Virus record (IMG/VR): IMGVR_UViG_3300025012_000095
Span: 1 to 60,941 of that record
DNA from: a virus
Length of the DNA: 60,941 nt
Strand: one strand, 5' to 3'
A model generated the notes under the pieces. The model was not told the origin of the DNA, did no database searches, and saw nothing but the letters and a program-made list of their open reading frames with translations. Position 1 is the first letter of the stretch, and each line of letters starts with the position of its first letter. Positions 3,266 through 60,941 of the stretch are shown here, piece by piece. The position numbers were made by a program, and so were the translations under genes.

Positions 3266-4189
3266 ATGGGCGGCGTCGAAATGGGGATGAGCCGGAGGAC
3301 AACCGTGATTTTTTACGTCGGCCTTCACATGCCAAGTCATGCCCGGCATTTCGACAATTGCATGATTAGTGTGAATCGCCTTTGCAAGCGCCGCAGCCCT
3401 TTCGTAGTGCGAAATTGGATTATGGACAGTGGCGCATTCACCACTGTCTATCGCGATGGTGGATACCGGACTCCTCCCGATGCTTATGTGGCTGAGGTTC
3501 GGCGGTGGTCTTCAAACGGCAATCTGGTTGCCGCCGTGTCACAGGACTGGATGTGTGAGCCCGTTGTGCTGGAGAAGACCGGACTGTCCATAGCGGACCA
3601 CCAACGGTTGACGATCGAACGCTATTGTCAGCTCGCACCCCTCATCGACATGACATACCTGATGCCGGTGCTCCAGGGTTATGCGCCGGCCGAGTATGCC
3701 CTACACGTGCGACAATACGGTGAGTTGCTGGCGCCGAGTGCGTGGGTTGGCGTTGGGTCTGTTTGTAAAAGGAACGCTTCGCCTGGGCGGGTGGAGGCGG
3801 TGTTACGGGAGATTTTGACGGTGCGGCCCGACCTGTGGTTGCATGGGTTTGGCCTGAAGACGACAGCTCTAGCAGACGGGCGAGTGCGGGCTATGCTGTC
3901 GTCAGCCGATAGCATGGCGTGGTCCTATGCAGCGCGTTGGGAGGGCCGAGACGCAAACGACTGGAGGGAGGCGGCCCGATTTGTGACGCGAATCGTGTCA
4001 AGGCCGCACCAACTACCATTGTGGCTATCGTCCCACTGTCTAGAGGTGTCGGCGGAGACAGGTGTCGGCGACAATCAGCCTCCGCTTTGTGCGGGGATGG
4101 GCGCGGGGATGAGGATGTGGACTCGCGGCCGAGCAGTCGGTCCCGCCGCGACGTCAACCGAGCAGCCGGCCCTGCCGGGCCTGGCGTAG
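3266..4189 (+). CDS. dpdA: DpdA-like 7-deazaguanine DNA transglycosylase
   Basis: 307 residues; ATG 3281 or 3287 are alternative starts. It is related to tRNA-guanine transglycosylase (TGT) but is a phage DpdA-type protein. Visible motifs in order: MDSGAFT (Asp54, matching the TGT DSGGFQ base-binding loop), QDWMCEP, PVLQG, WVGVGSVCKRN (matching the TGT glycine loop), LHGFGLK, and SADSMAWS (Asp215, in the position of the TGT catalytic nucleophile). The TGT C-terminal Cys3-His zinc site is not evident. Known DpdA proteins exchange guanine in DNA for preQ0 or a derivative, which blocks host restriction enzymes. The YhhQ transporter gene is about 1 kb downstream. The family is clear; the exact base made is unknown. 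Confidence 0.85.
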   Translation: MGGVEMGMSRRTTVIFYVGLHMPSHARHFDNCMISVNRLCKRRSPFVVRNWIMDSGAFTTVYRDGGYRTPPDAYVAEVRRWSSNGNLVAAVSQDWMCEPVVLEKTGLSIADHQRLTIERYCQLAPLIDMTYLMPVLQGYAPAEYALHVRQYGELLAPSAWVGVGSVCKRNASPGRVEAVLREILTVRPDLWLHGFGLKTTALADGRVRAMLSSADSMAWSYAARWEGRDANDWREAARFVTRIVSRPHQLPLWLSSHCLEVSAETGVGDNQPPLCAGMGAGMRMWTRGRAVGPAATSTEQPALPGLA

Positions 4190-4201
4190 TCAATCAATCG
4201 G
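4172..4201. repeat. 30-bp direct repeat, left copy
   Basis: Identical to 6301-6330. This copy spans the last codons and stop of the DpdA gene and the upstream part of the next ribosome site. The two copies bracket the lipoprotein/methyltransferase/YhhQ region. Confidence 0.9.
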
Positions 4202-4210
4202 GAGAATAAC

Positions 4211-4999
4211 ATGATCGACGCCATACTGGACCGCATGATCGACGCCATACTGGACCGATGGACGCTGGTTGGCGACAGATGGTACGCCTTCCGTTGTCCC
4301 GCCGGAAATGGGCCCCGGACTTGGCGGTGTCCGAGCGTCTGCCCGTGCTGTGAGGGCGAGTGCGGGTTTACGGAACACGTGGACGAATGGGGCGGCCCAC
4401 ACTATCCCTGTGGATATTGCGACAGCAGTGGCGTTGTGTCGCTGCGCGCGCGGATGTTGTGGTGGTCCTATGGGTCCCGCGTAGGTAAGTGGTTCTGGCG
4501 GCTCTTCGAACGCCTAGAAGAAAGGCGGCAGGTGAATGACATGACCAAGGACACGCTACGTTGGATCGTCGCGTTGGCCGCGCTTGTGGCGGCGCTGACG
4601 CTGGTTGGGTGCCGTGGCAATGCGACGGCTGGCCCCATCGGTTCCGCCTGGCCGACCGAGGACCTGACCGCCGCTGGCTGGCAGGCTACGGGCATGTGCG
4701 CGCCGGCGGTGGTTACGCCGGCCATGCTGGCGGTGTGGTTCGCCTCGGTTGACGGTACGATCCGTGTAGAGGTCGGCGCCAGTACGGTATCGTTCGGGCA
4801 TTACGTCGTTTCGGTGGATGTTGCCCAGCGATCCGTGTCGGTGGTAGGGCCGCCGGGTGCCGATGTGCTAGAGCGGGACATAGCGGCGTGTGTCGGCTCG
4901 GGGCCGATGCCGGACGACCGCGCCGGGCGCTGGATAGACGGCATGTACACGGATGAGGCTATCGAGCCGACTGCGCCAGCCGGCGAGCCACAAGCCTGA
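4211..4999 (+). CDS. Zinc-finger / lipoprotein-like fusion protein
   Basis: 262 residues in one open frame that looks like two joined genes. The first 16 residues are an exact 8-residue tandem repeat (24-bp duplication at 4211-4258). Residues 40-80 carry Cys pairs (CPCC, CGYC) of a zinc-ribbon type. From Met111 (ATG 4541) the sequence is a lipoprotein signal: MTKD, a hydrophobic stretch of about 18 residues, then a TLVGC lipobox, then a secreted-type domain with two further Cys. The ATG at 4541 may be the true start of a separate lipoprotein of 152 residues. A phage lipoprotein could act in superinfection exclusion; this is inference. Confidence 0.55.
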   Translation: MIDAILDRMIDAILDRWTLVGDRWYAFRCPAGNGPRTWRCPSVCPCCEGECGFTEHVDEWGGPHYPCGYCDSSGVVSLRARMLWWSYGSRVGKWFWRLFERLEERRQVNDMTKDTLRWIVALAALVAALTLVGCRGNATAGPIGSAWPTEDLTAAGWQATGMCAPAVVTPAMLAVWFASVDGTIRVEVGASTVSFGHYVVSVDVAQRSVSVVGPPGADVLERDIAACVGSGPMPDDRAGRWIDGMYTDEAIEPTAPAGEPQA

Positions 5000-5023: not shown

Positions 5024-5335
5024 GTGAACTTTAATAAGTGCCCCTTCCCGTGGTTTGGCGGAAAGAGTCAAGCCGCCCCGGTTGTGTGGGCTGCGTTAGG
5101 GGATTGCGTGCATTACATAGTCAACCGTGCGATAGACAAAGAGAGAGGTGAGAGTGAAATACTCCAAGTGGTTCCTGATCGTCGCCGCCTTCTTCATCAC
5201 AGCCTTATTGACCGCGAACATAATCGCCGTAAAGTTGATCGACGTCTTCGGGCTGATTATGCCGGCGGGGGTGATCATCTTCCCCGTCAGCTACATCTTC
5301 GGCGACGTGCTCACCGAGGTCTACGGTTACGCTAG
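5024..5335 (+). pseudogene. N-terminal remnant of a DNA adenine methyltransferase
   Basis: A GTG start with a GGGAG site. The first 30 codons include CPFPWFGGKSQAAPVVW and ALGDCVHYI, the motif X region and following strand of D12-class phage adenine methyltransferases. The expected next element, a motif I of the type EPFAG, is missing. The frame runs instead into the YhhQ gene region and stops at 5335. About 100 bases are homologous; the rest is out-of-frame transporter sequence. It cannot be an active methyltransferase as it stands. Confidence 0.7.
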
Positions 5336-5849
5336 AGCGCGCACGGTCATCTGGCTCGGCTTCCTGTGCAACCTGCTCGCCGTGATCGCCATCACCGTCG
5401 CCCAAATCCTGCCCGCAGCCGCCTTCTGGCAGGGCCAAGGTGCCTACGAGACGATTCTCGGCTATGCCCCCCGCCTGCTGTTGGCCTCCTTCACGGCGTA
5501 CGTCGTCGGCGAATTCGCCAACTCGTACGTCCTCGCCAAGATGAAGATCGCCACCCGCGGCCGCTGGCTGTGGACCCGGACCATTGGCTCCACACTCGTC
5601 GGCCAGGGCCTGGACTCTCTACTCTTCATCCTGATCGCCTTCGCCGGCACCATCCCCACGGCTGGTCTGCTGAGTGCCATCATCACGCAGTGGCTCGTCA
5701 AGTCCGCCTACGAAGCCTTGGCCACACCGATCACCTACGCCGTGACTAGCTTCCTCAAGCGCGAGGAGGGCATCGACGTATTTGACTATGACACGAGCTT
5801 CAACCCGATCTCGACGCCGCATCCTCGTGCCATTCGCCGGATCGGGTAG
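5154..5849 (+). CDS. yhhQ: Queuosine-precursor transporter (YhhQ/VUT family)
   Basis: 231 residues from GTG 5154, with GAGAGAGG a few bases upstream; GTG 5148 is possible. Six or so hydrophobic segments are visible. Family signatures include TANIIAVKLIDVFG, PVSYIFGDVLTEVYGY, a central FANSYVLAKMK and, near the C-terminus, KSAYEALATPITY. YhhQ proteins import 7-deazaguanine precursors (preQ0, preQ1). The last 12 or so codons run into former methyltransferase DNA, so the C-terminus is probably extended. No queuosine biosynthesis gene is present, so with DpdA it suggests a salvage route to modified phage DNA. Less GTG-rich and more C-ending codons than its neighbours suggest transfer. Confidence 0.9.
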   Translation: MKYSKWFLIVAAFFITALLTANIIAVKLIDVFGLIMPAGVIIFPVSYIFGDVLTEVYGYARARTVIWLGFLCNLLAVIAITVAQILPAAAFWQGQGAYETILGYAPRLLLASFTAYVVGEFANSYVLAKMKIATRGRWLWTRTIGSTLVGQGLDSLLFILIAFAGTIPTAGLLSAIITQWLVKSAYEALATPITYAVTSFLKREEGIDVFDYDTSFNPISTPHPRAIRRIG

Positions 5850-5970
5850 CGCGGTCTGCGGCGCGATGCTGGTGGGCTGGGAGGATGTACTGGCGATCGA
5901 ACGCGAGCTAGAGTACGCCGACATTGCGCTGGAGAGCCACAAACGTGAAGCCGCCTTGCGTGTGGTATGA
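5782..5970 (+). pseudogene. C-terminal remnant of a DNA methyltransferase
   Basis: In a different frame from YhhQ and overlapping its end, this segment encodes RRILVPFAGSGSAVCGAML, then a Gly/Ala helix and ERELEYADIALESHK. This is the AdoMet-binding FxGxG motif (motif I) and the following acidic strand end of N6-adenine/N4-cytosine methyltransferases, as found at the C-terminus of beta-class enzymes. The catalytic DPPY/SPPY motif is absent. With the fragment at 5024 it flanks YhhQ; the two may come from one enzyme or from two different ones. Confidence 0.65.
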
Positions 5971-6130
5971 GACCCTTGACGGTTGGTACGAGACCGAGTG
6001 CGGGCACGCGTTCATCGTCGACCACGGCACGCCGGCGGAGAATGGCATGGGGTTTTGCTGCTACTGCGGGGCAACGCTAACGGCGGTCCGGGCGCAGTCA
6101 CACAACGATGACGATCAAGAGGAGGTGTGA
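5945..6130 (+). CDS. Small zinc-ribbon protein
   Basis: 61 residues from GTG 5945, which overlaps the methyltransferase remnant. TECGHAF ... FCCYCGATL forms a C-x-H and C-x2-C type zinc site. The layout resembles short zinc-ribbon proteins common in phages, including Lar-like restriction-alleviation proteins, but the match is too general to name it. Confidence 0.55.
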   Translation: MKPPCVWYETLDGWYETECGHAFIVDHGTPAENGMGFCCYCGATLTAVRAQSHNDDDQEEV

Positions 6131-6134
6131 TGTG

Positions 6135-6338
6135 ATGAACCGTTCGTGGCGCGGCAGCAGAATCTATGAATGGCGTGGATGGGTAGTGCTGTTAGTTGGG
6201 AATTACAAAGTCTCGTTCAAGTGGCGCCCTGGCGGTGCGATTGGCCGATGGGGGCGCTGGAGCATTCTGCCGCGGGTGGGGCCGGAGGATGTGTGGCAAG
6301 CTGCCGGGCCTGGCGTAGTCAATCAATCGGAGGAATGA
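6135..6338 (+). CDS. Hypothetical protein
   Basis: 67 residues from ATG 6135 behind an AAGAGGAGGTG site. Basic and Trp/Arg-rich, with no recognised motif. Its last 12 codons are encoded by the right copy of the 30-bp repeat plus the next ribosome site, so the tail was probably created by a recombination junction. Confidence 0.45.
   Translation: MNRSWRGSRIYEWRGWVVLLVGNYKVSFKWRPGGAIGRWGRWSILPRVGPEDVWQAAGPGVVNQSEE
6301..6330. repeat. 30-bp direct repeat, right copy
   Basis: Identical to 4172-4201, where the same bases end the DpdA gene. Here they lie at the end of the gene at 6135 and before the ribosome site for the gene at 6340. The distance between copies is 2,129 bp. Confidence 0.9.
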
Positions 6339-6339
6339 C

Positions 6340-6609
6340 GTGATTTGCAGACTGGGGATACATCAGTGGGCGTGGTTCGGCCCGATCTATGGCGGGCAGT
6401 TTATGAACCGGGTTTGCAAGCGGTGTAGGGAGCACCAGGTCTACTCCTTGGCTCAGGGTGACTATCGCTCCGACTGGCATCGTGTTGGCGCCGAGGATTG
6501 GCTGACATATAACCCCGCGCCGCCGGTACTGTCGAAGGAAACGATGGACGTTATTGGTCGGTTGCGCGAAGCTCCTGTTGACACCGTGGCCGGTGGCGCC
6601 GTAACTTGA
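6340..6609 (+). CDS. Hypothetical protein with Cys pair
   Basis: 89 residues from GTG 6340 with an excellent AATCGGAGGAAT site. It begins MICRLGIHQW and has CKRCREHQ, a pattern of short phage zinc-binding proteins. It is the last gene of the left operon; its stop overlaps the -35 box of the next promoter. Confidence 0.55.
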   Translation: MICRLGIHQWAWFGPIYGGQFMNRVCKRCREHQVYSLAQGDYRSDWHRVGAEDWLTYNPAPPVLSKETMDVIGRLREAPVDTVAGGAVT

Positions 6610-19010: not shown

Positions 19011-19316
19011 ATGGCCCACGGCGGGGATTATCTCGAGGGCTCAACGGTTCGTGTCCAAGTGACGTTCGTGGTCGGAGGGGTGAACACCGATCCGACTACG
19101 GTCACGCTCAAGGTCAAGAGTCCGGCGGGCGTGACGACGACCTACACCTATGCGTTGAGCCAGGTGTCGAAGTCGGCGACCGGGGTCTACTCCAAGGATC
19201 TGGGGCCGTCTATCATTGACGCGCCGGGGGCATGGTGGTACAGGTGGATCGGAACTGGCACCGCTGCGGGAGTCGCCGAAACATCGATCACGATCCTCGC
19301 GAGCCAGATAGACTGA
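19011..19316 (+). CDS. Ig-like small structural protein
   Basis: 101 residues from ATG 19011. Beta-sandwich pattern: GDYLEGSTVRVQVTFVV, DPTTVTLKVKSP, then GAWWYRWIGTG and AETSITI. This order is common among small phage proteins located before terminase or in the neck. Probably virion associated. Confidence 0.55.
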   Translation: MAHGGDYLEGSTVRVQVTFVVGGVNTDPTTVTLKVKSPAGVTTTYTYALSQVSKSATGVYSKDLGPSIIDAPGAWWYRWIGTGTAAGVAETSITILASQID

Positions 19317-19345
19317 GGCTATATGATCACGGAAAGGGAGCAAAA

Positions 19346-21199
19346 ATGACCGTAGCGGCGAATCCCTGGACAAGCCTAGCCGCATGGTGCCAGGGCGATG
19401 CGTTGGCCACTTCGGCTGTAAAGACTGACGATGAGTTGTGGGAGTGGGTGGCCGACACCCTCGGTGTTGTTATCCCGCGAAAAGCTTGTTTTGACGGGCA
19501 CACGGCCCCATTCGATGCGTTTGCGGAAGCGTTCTTTGCGAAAACCCCGATCTCGGTGTGGATTGGATCTAGAGGATTCTCGGGGAAGTCGTATCTGCTG
19601 GCAGTGTTGGGGATAACGGAGGCGCTGCTACTTGGGGCGGATGTGAGAATCTTGGGAGGGTCCACGGACCAGTCGGAGAACGTAGTTCGGTACACGGAAT
19701 CCTTTATGGGCCGCCCGAAGTTCCCCCCCGGCATGATTCTGTCTGGGAGGCAGCCAGGAGTAACCAAGACTCGAATCAGTCTTGTAAACGGAGGGGGGAT
19801 GATAGCTCTTCCTGCGTCCATGACCGCTGTTAGAGGTCCCCACCCGTCTCGTCTTAGGGTGGACGAGTGCTTTATCGCCGGCACACGAGTTGCCGTGCCA
19901 GAAGGGGTGAAAGTAATCGAGAGCTTTGCCCCTGGCGACAGGGTTCTTTCTTGGAAGGACGGGAAGATAGTTGAGGGGGAGGTTCTTCGTACCTGGGATC
20001 GGGGGAGACGTGAGACTATCAAGTTGACGGTGCGGACGGGCAGCAACTTGGTTTGCACGCCCGAGCACAAGATCCTTGATGGTGTCGAGGACAAGTGGGT
20101 ACAGGCTTCCATCTCAACCTTTGTCCGTACAGCGTCGTTCGTTGAAAAGTGGGAGACGGGGGTAGGGAAGATCGTTGATCGTGTGGCTTTTGGGAGAAGC
20201 CGTGTTTATGACATTGCTACAACTCACGGTAACTACATAGTAGAGGGTGTGATAGTTCACAACTGCGACGAGTTGGACTGGAAGGTGCTTCAGGCTGCGC
20301 TGGGGCAGACGATGGCTGCTGGGGCGGTCCAAGCCCAGACGGTGGTGTCAAGCACTCACCACCACGCTGACGGGACCATGACGCAGGTGCTCAAATTGGC
20401 TGAGGAGCGGGGGTGGGCCACCCACAGGTGGTGTTTCAATTGTACGTCAAAGACGGTTGAGAACCCGACTGGCTGGCTGGCCCCCTCTGAGGTTGCCCGC
20501 AAGCGGCAAGAGGTTCCGGCCGCAATGTTTGAAGTTGAGTATAATCTCTCTGAGCCCAGCCCTGAATCCCGAGCAATCATGCCACAATCCGTCGAGGATA
20601 TGTTTCAGGAGGGGTTGGGTCGTTTTGACGGCAAGCCGGGGGAGTATATAGAGATTGAGGCTCCCGTCCAGGGGGCGCGGTACTCTACGGGGGCAGACTG
20701 GGCCAAGGACGTTAACTGGACAGACATTGTAACGCTCCGGTACGACGTGACCCCGGTTAAGGTGGTGGCCTGGGAACGGCGGGGGCGCGAGCCCTACCCC
20801 ATAATGGCGGGATGCTTAGACAAGCGAGCTACCCGATACCCTGGGAGGGTGTTTCACGACCAAACCGGTGTTGGCAACGGGCTTCACGACTTTTTGAATT
20901 GCAACGCTACCGGTGTGGTGTTGGTGGGGAGGAGGAGAACCGACCTGCTTTCTAGCTACATCACCGCTATAGAGGGAGGGCGGATAGTCGCCCCTCGGAT
21001 TGCACATGTTCACGGTGAGCATCGTTATTGCGCGAGTGACGACCTTTGGGGGGATGGGCATCTCCCCGACTCAGTGTGTTCACACGCATTGGCGTGGTCA
21101 GGAGTAAGTCAGGGCGGGCTAGGTCAACCTGATACTGGCCCCGAGTACAACTTGCTAGATCACACCGAGCTTGGCGGTTGGGATCGACTAGAGCTTTAG
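19346..21199 (+). CDS. terL: Terminase large subunit, interrupted by an intein
   Basis: 617 residues as encoded and about 485 after removal of the 132-residue intein. Start ATG 19346 has AAAGGGAGC upstream. The ATPase half shows Walker A GSRGFSGKS (residues 74-82) and Walker B RLRVDE, with the intein inserted directly after the catalytic Glu and before CDELDW. The nuclease half has STGADWAKDVNW and VFHDQTGVGNG with the expected acidic residues. It packages DNA into the Mu-like prohead encoded downstream. Since the intein cuts the Walker B motif, activity requires splicing. Confidence 0.9.
   Translation: MTVAANPWTSLAAWCQGDALATSAVKTDDELWEWVADTLGVVIPRKACFDGHTAPFDAFAEAFFAKTPISVWIGSRGFSGKSYLLAVLGITEALLLGADVRILGGSTDQSENVVRYTESFMGRPKFPPGMILSGRQPGVTKTRISLVNGGGMIALPASMTAVRGPHPSRLRVDECFIAGTRVAVPEGVKVIESFAPGDRVLSWKDGKIVEGEVLRTWDRGRRETIKLTVRTGSNLVCTPEHKILDGVEDKWVQASISTFVRTASFVEKWETGVGKIVDRVAFGRSRVYDIATTHGNYIVEGVIVHNCDELDWKVLQAALGQTMAAGAVQAQTVVSSTHHHADGTMTQVLKLAEERGWATHRWCFNCTSKTVENPTGWLAPSEVARKRQEVPAAMFEVEYNLSEPSPESRAIMPQSVEDMFQEGLGRFDGKPGEYIEIEAPVQGARYSTGADWAKDVNWTDIVTLRYDVTPVKVVAWERRGREPYPIMAGCLDKRATRYPGRVFHDQTGVGNGLHDFLNCNATGVVLVGRRRTDLLSSYITAIEGGRIVAPRIAHVHGEHRYCASDDLWGDGHLPDSVCSHALAWSGVSQGGLGQPDTGPEYNLLDHTELGGWDRLEL
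19868..20263 (+). other. Mini-intein within the large terminase
   Basis: 132 residues (175-306 of the precursor). It starts with CFIAGTRV (catalytic Cys1, block A) and contains LVCTPEHKIL (block B, T-x2-H). It ends RVYDIATTHGNYIVEG (block F) and VIVHN (block G, terminal His-Asn), followed by Cys+1. No LAGLIDADG or HNH homing-endonuclease region is present, so it is a minimal Hint splicing domain that cannot move by its own nuclease. Confidence 0.92.
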
Positions 21200-57786: not shown

Positions 57787-58043
57787 TCTGGGGCTGGGTG
57801 GGAAGGCGGTTTCTCCCCGAGCGACACGGACAGGCGTGCCGAGTCCTTGTCAGAGGAAGACCGCCTCGCCAGCGACACGTGCTGGTCGAATTCGGTGATG
57901 GGTATTGTACCCGCACAATGCAGGGGTGCCTGAGGAGGCGCAAGATGTTGAATGATGGCGATGGCGATAGTCCCAACGTTCGCCCGTCATGCCCGAGAGG
58001 AGCGGCCGGCACACACGAGGAGGCAGGCGATGATGCGAGATGA
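57783..58043 (+). CDS. Hypothetical protein
   Basis: 86 residues from ATG 57783 (ATGA overlap). VGRRFLPERHGQACRVLVRG and HVLVEFGDGYCTRT look like a small beta-barrel; the tail is acidic. The same frame upstream of this ATG encodes a few pentapeptide repeats (AHLSGADLGGAGLREAYLYG), possibly a decayed fusion. Confidence 0.5.
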   Translation: MIWGWVGRRFLPERHGQACRVLVRGRPPRQRHVLVEFGDGYCTRTMQGCLRRRKMLNDGDGDSPNVRPSCPRGAAGTHEEAGDDAR

Positions 58044-58713
58044 GTGTCTGACGATCATTGAGGCGGCTCGGGCTGCCGGGGAACAGCCGGACCTCGGCTG
58101 GGTGAACCTCGGCGGCGCGGACCTACGCGGGGCGGACCTGACCGGCGCGGACCTCGGCGGGGCGAACCTCCGCGGGGCGAACCTCGGCGGGGCGAACCTA
58201 CGCGTGGCGTACCTACGCGGGGCGTACCTACGCGAGGCCAACCTACGCGAGGCCAACCTACGCGGGGCGAACCTCGGCGGGGCTTACCTATGCGGGGCGG
58301 ACCTAACCGGCGCGGACCTACGCGAGGCGAACCTACGTGGGGCGTATCTACGTGGGGCGTATCTACGCTGGGTGTACCTACGCGAGGCCAACCTACGCGG
58401 GGCGAACCTGGCCGGGGCGGACCTACGCGAGGCGGACCTACGCGGGGCGGACCTGTACGGAGCGGACTTACGCGGAGTGAACCTACGCGGCGCGGACCTG
58501 TACGAGTCGGACCTGACCGACGCGGACCTGCGCAAGGGGAACCTCAGTTGGGCGAACCTACGCGAGGCGTACCTACGCGAGGCCAACCTACGCGAGGCAT
58601 ACCTACGCTGGGCGGACCTGCGCGGGGCTGACCTCGGCGGGGCGGACCTGACCGGGGCGATCCTGGACGGGGCGATCCTGGACGGAGAGGAGGCAGGCGA
58701 TGACACGAGATGA
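58030..58713 (+). CDS. Pentapeptide-repeat protein 1
   Basis: 227 residues from ATG 58030 with GAGGAGGCAGGCG. After an 18-residue helix (RDECLTIIEAARAAGEQ) come about 40 A(D/N)Lxx pentapeptides to the end, forming a right-handed quadrilateral beta-helix. Some such proteins (Qnr, MfpA) mimic DNA and bind gyrase; whether this one does is not known. Repeats are very similar in DNA, so copy number can change by slippage. Confidence 0.85.
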   Translation: MMRDECLTIIEAARAAGEQPDLGWVNLGGADLRGADLTGADLGGANLRGANLGGANLRVAYLRGAYLREANLREANLRGANLGGAYLCGADLTGADLREANLRGAYLRGAYLRWVYLREANLRGANLAGADLREADLRGADLYGADLRGVNLRGADLYESDLTDADLRKGNLSWANLREAYLREANLREAYLRWADLRGADLGGADLTGAILDGAILDGEEAGDDTR

Positions 58714-60753: not shown

Positions 60754-60941
60754 AGCGATCCACCGAACGACTAGTGGCCGTCCCCGACACCGTGGTTGTA
60801 GGCCCCGTGTTGAAGGTGTTGGCGTGCGGATGCGTAGCAGACTCGATTGGTGGGCTCTGGGCGCCGTGCGCCGAAGTGGCAGAGGTGCACGCTCTCGCGT
60901 GTGAGCTGGCGGGCCAGGGGCTTCTGTTAGATTCCGAGAGA
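60750..60941 (+). CDS. N-terminal part of the gene that wraps to the window start
   Basis: ATG 60750 after GGGGTGGAG. The frame is open to the window end and continues at position 4 in phase, giving 115 residues in total. This is the true start of the product described at 4-285. Confidence 0.75.
   Translation, partial: MKRSTERLVAVPDTVVVGPVLKVLACGCVADSIGGLWAPCAEVAEVHALACELAGQGLLLDSER
60816..60941. repeat. Right copy of 126-bp terminal direct repeat
   Basis: Identical to 4-129. See the left copy. Confidence 0.95.

Follow-up and report, generated by a model that had tools for sequence, protein, structure and literature searches.

7-Deazaguanines protect DNA (PMC6884629), and a third group of phages described by Hutinet et al. 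in 2019 encodes DpdA without FolE, QueD, QueE or QueC and so has to obtain the precursor from its host or the environment (PMC6884629). Carriage of DpdA alone does not guarantee modification, since phage Orion has the protein and no 7-deazaguanine was detected in it; YhhQ occurs in some phages and is not correlated with any of the groups (PMC6884629). YhhQ belongs to the queuosine-precursor transporters (QPTR), whose substrates are preQ0 and preQ1 in E. coli and queuine in Chlamydia (PMC11130926). In Sinorhizobium phage phiLM21, dpdA (gp25) is followed by a gene of the same transporter family, Vut (gp26), and then by a methyltransferase-like gene (gp27).

Here we describe a related arrangement in a window of 60,941 nucleotides, which is the whole of IMG/VR virus record IMGVR_UViG_3300025012_000095. 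Like the third-group phages, it has dpdA and no de novo preQ0 pathway: Pfam scans of the genome's ORFs, covering all but some short frames (mostly <70 amino acids), gave no match to FolE, QueD, QueE, QueC or QueF, and the precursor would therefore come from outside the phage. Unlike those phages, it adds a full-length, cell-type YhhQ importer, lodged in the scar of two methyltransferases. It also differs from phiLM21, in which the Vut protein is short and divergent (175 amino acids) and the methyltransferase-like gene belongs to another family and is intact. The parts were already known, and their arrangement is new. We read the locus, with a probability of about two in three, as a salvage-type 7-deazaguanine DNA-modification module, completed when the phage recently captured a bacterial importer of preQ0/preQ1 that took the place of two methyltransferases.

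The dpdA gene (3266-4189, plus strand) encodes a TGT-like DNA transglycosylase of the kind that inserts 7-deazaguanine bases (phrog_1279, E 2e-61). Its product matches PF23859 (E 1.5e-42; 146 bits against 27) and keeps the Asp of DSG (D54) and that of DSM (D215), both invariant in an alignment of 16 relatives. The gene, which was absent from an earlier sequence-only reading of this DNA, lies ~1 kb upstream of yhhQ in the same direction. An unrelated open frame between the two (4211-4999, plus strand) matched no family above the cut-off; the probable start of a small lipoprotein-like gene lies within it, at ~4541.

The yhhQ gene (QPTR/Vut_1; 5148-5849, plus strand) begins with a GTG at 5148 or 5154. 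Its product gave a full-length match to PF02592 (E 1.1e-52; 178.9 bits against a cut-off of 27.2) and scored 128.1 bits with the equivalog model TIGR00697 (curated cut-off 50.95). With 71 of the 73 columns that are ≥95% conserved in cellular members retained, the protein looks functional, and membership of the family predicts that it imports preQ0 and/or preQ1. Alignment with cellular homologues covers residues 2-222 and ends at FNPLxx; residues 223-233, the final 11, therefore come from read-through into the DNA of the right flank, and the donor's stop codon has disappeared. At the DNA level, the longest matches to cellular yhhQ begin at 5143-5160 and similarity extends to 5806-5816, so each junction is located to within a few tens of bases.

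Composition and phylogeny set the gene apart from its surroundings. In codon usage, yhhQ is the strongest outlier of 24 genes (distance 0.319; next gene, 0.194), and its GC3 reaches 0.865; the other genes that were checked have values of 0.63-0.72. The protein is 70-75% identical to cellular YhhQ, with no cellular copy found that is less than 25% diverged from it, and in a tree with moderate deep support and long viral branches it nests among YhhQs of Chloroflexota and Thermodesulfobacteriota, apart from other viral ones. By these measures, yhhQ is a foreign gene, and it looks like a recent capture from a bacterium with a YhhQ of Chloroflexota/Thermodesulfobacteriota type.

Sharp junctions and foreign codon usage would also be seen if assembly had joined a cellular yhhQ to phage DNA. 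We consider such a chimera very improbable, given that a second IMG/VR contig with different end points (IMGVR_UViG_3300025015_000077; 36,499 bases), possibly from the same sample as the window record, is identical to window positions 4-34042, both junctions included; the loss of the donor stop codon and the divergence from all cellular copies argue in the same direction. In addition, the window closes as a circle, with bases 4-129 repeated exactly at 60816-60941 (a 126-bp exact end overlap). This circularity, together with the different permutation of the second contig, which crosses the window's end join, means that the window apparently amounts to a complete phage genome of ~60.8 kb, assembled as a circle. 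Mismatches between the two contigs are confined to the first 20 bases of the second, within window positions 57952-58713. That interval encodes a pentapeptide-repeat protein and has strong internal DNA repeats. The portal and head genes of the genome are Mu-like; a 655-residue protein (19232-21199), encoded immediately before the portal gene in the position expected for the terminase, gave weak Hint/intein-splicing matches and possibly holds an intein.

The sequence-only reading had placed yhhQ inside the remains of one or more DNA methyltransferase genes, and profile searches bore this out on both sides. On the left, a GTG at 5024 opens a stump of ~31 codons, MNFNKCPFPWFGGKSQAAPVVWAALGDCVHY (5024-5116, plus strand), after which homology to the D12 class of adenine methyltransferases ends, at ~5117. 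A profile of 8 D12 methyltransferases from phages detected the stump with E 3e-13 (next-best window ORF, E 2.8); it is identical to one relative (L111) at 24 of 30 residues (80%), and tblastn matched it to Mycobacterium phage prophiGD11-3 gp26 with E 2e-4. Comparison with the D12 relatives L108-L114 showed that the stump breaks off after GDCVHY, as had been noticed, just before AdoMet motif I: past HY the relatives read VEPFFGSGAVLLNRP and enter VEPFFGSG, and the window reads IVNRAIDKERGE. Thus, only the first ~31 codons remain of a D12-class enzyme (PF02086; motif I and DPPY), and PF02086 found no match anywhere in the whole record. Between the end of D12 homology and the start of yhhQ similarity lies the left junction with the yhhQ leader (5117-5153, plus strand), which contains the Shine-Dalgarno-like GAGAGAGGTGAG.

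The right flank, in another frame, carries the C-terminal stump of a beta-class N6/N4 methyltransferase (5812-5970, plus strand; ~52 codons). The stump opens with RRRILVPFAGSGS at ~5812, shortly before motif I, and ends with its own stop codon at 5970. The sequence RRRILVPFAGSGSAVCGAMLVGWEDVLAIERELEYADIALESHKREAALRVV, up to this stop, matches the C-terminal end of beta-class enzymes with a profile E of 8e-11 (next-best window ORF, 2.5), and 20+ viral homologues read ...PRRILVPFAGSGSEMIGAxLAGWEEVxGIExxxxYxxIAxxRL, in agreement with the earlier recognition of LVPFAGSGSAV as an AdoMet motif. Of a complete beta-class enzyme (PF01555; DPPY, target region and motif I), only these last ~52 codons are left, and PF01555 had no match anywhere in the whole record. 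A small Cys-containing gene (5945-6130, plus strand; phrog_10312, E 5e-9) overlaps the 3' end of the stump, an overlap that would be natural if the methyltransferase gene originally ended here.

Both frames are open, and the left one keeps a start codon and a Shine-Dalgarno-like GAGGGAG, which would suit two small genes that are intact in their own right, an outcome that the sequence-only reading had itself raised as an objection. The homologues make this barely credible: those of the left flank extend into methyltransferases of ~350-420 residues, and the frames homologous to the right flank are mostly longer beta-class enzymes with a catalytic motif. In three viral contigs (L122, L123 and L126), the beta-class C-terminus forms a separate 88-residue open frame with no catalytic motif inside, either a split gene or a pseudogene, which covers more of the enzyme than does the right stump of the window.

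By their homology, the stumps derive from two different enzymes, a D12 N-terminus and a beta-class C-terminus. The two classes have the catalytic motif on opposite sides of motif I, as was also visible in the relatives examined. A single interrupted methyltransferase was considered and rejected, as the left piece is D12 and the right piece beta-class and no examined protein held both. The earlier observation is confirmed, and its interpretation is supported in part: yhhQ does lie between truncated pieces of methyltransferases. The catalytic DPPY is indeed gone: the lone [DNS]PP[YFW] in the genome's long open frames is a minus-strand SPPW at 19027, outside any methyltransferase context, and searches with PF02086, PF01555 and the motif found no intact D12- or beta-class methyltransferase elsewhere in the genome.

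Both stumps break within a few residues of the same AdoMet motif I (VEPFxGSG and LVPFAGSG), which suggests that the motif took part in the rearrangement; this is a suggestion only, because the motif I DNA of D12 relatives and that of the right stump are alike at just 14-17 of 27 bases. Such a coincidence, greater than that of two random cuts, would also fit a history in two steps and without a swap, in which the methyltransferases were recombined or deleted at motif I to leave a dead hybrid, and yhhQ arrived later as a moron with no functional link to methylation. A dpdA relative (L174; IMGVR_UViG_3300031414_000061) does have a D12 and then a beta methyltransferase gene in overlapping tandem (1093-2915), ~2 kb upstream of dpdA. 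We nevertheless find this history rather unlikely, as the low DNA similarity offers little substrate for recombination and yhhQ would need to have inserted precisely where the two genes were joined.

A direct exchange of modification strategy, in which two methyltransferases were deleted and replaced by an imported-base pathway with a freshly captured transporter, is an account that we put forward tentatively. In this exchange, the capture of the transporter would be so recent that foreign codon usage persists in its gene and the stumps have yet to decay. The stumps still encode recognizable, unbroken sequence, which fits a recent event. It may also be that the methyltransferases were lost before yhhQ arrived. 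The earlier description of yhhQ as part of another modification pathway is apt, with DpdA 1 kb upstream; its accompanying idea of an anti-restriction swap, a functional exchange with methylation, is one that we infer.

A relative with an uninterrupted methyltransferase at this locus, the check that the sequence-only reading had proposed, was looked for in IMG/VR and among isolated phages and was not found. In IMG/VR, searches via yhhQ, dpdA, the primase, the right stump and DNA patterns returned no uninterrupted locus, and only the duplicate contig shares the locus. No record among isolated phages covered both parts of a joint D12 and beta query, and a DNA-level search of the region in phages gave no match. 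Since no uninterrupted ancestor was found, replacement is read from the stumps. Methyltransferase genes do occur near dpdA in other phages: in addition to the tandem in L174, D12 and beta methyltransferases flank dpdA on both sides in L182, and further examples are phiLM21 gp27, two methyltransferase-family genes in RHph_TM3_3_3, and L006. These relatives are precedents for the parts as neighbours and not the ancestor, because their subtypes differ from those of the stumps.

Vut-family genes were found near dpdA in 6 of the 92 dpdA loci searched, so that most dpdA phages do without one. The six represent four distinct phages (phiLM21, L014, L220 and L181/L185/L186), in which the Vut gene abuts dpdA. 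In phiLM21, gp26 (L152:5810-6337), annotated as 'hypothetical protein', is a short Vut-family gene (PF02592, E 5e-14) directly after dpdA, and a similar short Vut gene overlaps dpdA in L014 (7502-8020). YhhQ is also present in Streptococcus phage MS1, Fusobacterium phage phiFN37, Haloarcula virus HCTV-16 and Providencia phage PSTCR7, at just 27-35% identity to that of the window and of separate origin. It lies one gene from a gene annotated as queuine tRNA-ribosyltransferase in phiFN37 and adjoins such a gene in MS1; MS1, HCTV-16 and PSTCR7 also carry biosynthesis genes, whereas none was found in the window.

These neighbourhoods bear on whether YhhQ instead serves the queuosine metabolism of host tRNA, as a metabolic moron, rather than modification of phage DNA. 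YhhQ/QPTR normally supplies tRNA queuosine synthesis (PMC11130926), and some phages have preQ0/Q genes without DpdA (PMC6884629). Given an intact, co-oriented dpdA at a distance of 1 kb, and Vut genes adjoining dpdA in several independent phages, we judge a role in host tRNA improbable here.

In the module as we envisage it, preQ0 and/or preQ1 from other cells would enter the infected host through YhhQ, and DpdA would exchange guanines in the phage DNA for the imported base, with family membership as the basis for each of these two steps. The exchange would block restriction enzymes that depend on guanine at the exchanged positions, and the module would have taken over the role of the methyltransferases. 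The yhhQ gene lies where a D12-class and a beta-class methyltransferase gene had been, and all that persists of them is the beginning of the first and the tail of the second. Many dpdA phages cannot make the base that they would insert; phage-encoded preQ0/preQ1 salvage is a source suggested by this locus and by the repeated pairing of Vut genes with dpdA in unrelated phages. The fresh scar may show a phage on its way from one anti-restriction strategy to another; such changes are usually inferred from gene presence or absence alone.

A 44-bp direct repeat (blastn, 91%) surrounds the region, with one copy at the 3' end of dpdA (4172-4215, plus strand) and the other at 6301-6344 (plus strand). 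Its exact 25-bp core, at 4177-4201 and 6306-6330, has 0 occurrences expected by chance. The repeat copies the 3' end of dpdA and the next ribosome-binding region, and it flanks a 2.1-kb block that holds yhhQ; the second copy seems to overwrite the 3' end of a gene at 6108. The repeat could mark exchange or insertion of the whole 2.1-kb block as a unit by recombination. Finally, a homologue of the 5945-6130 gene in Pseudomonas phage D14H is annotated 'Restriction alleviation protein', and the gene might be another anti-restriction gene at the locus.
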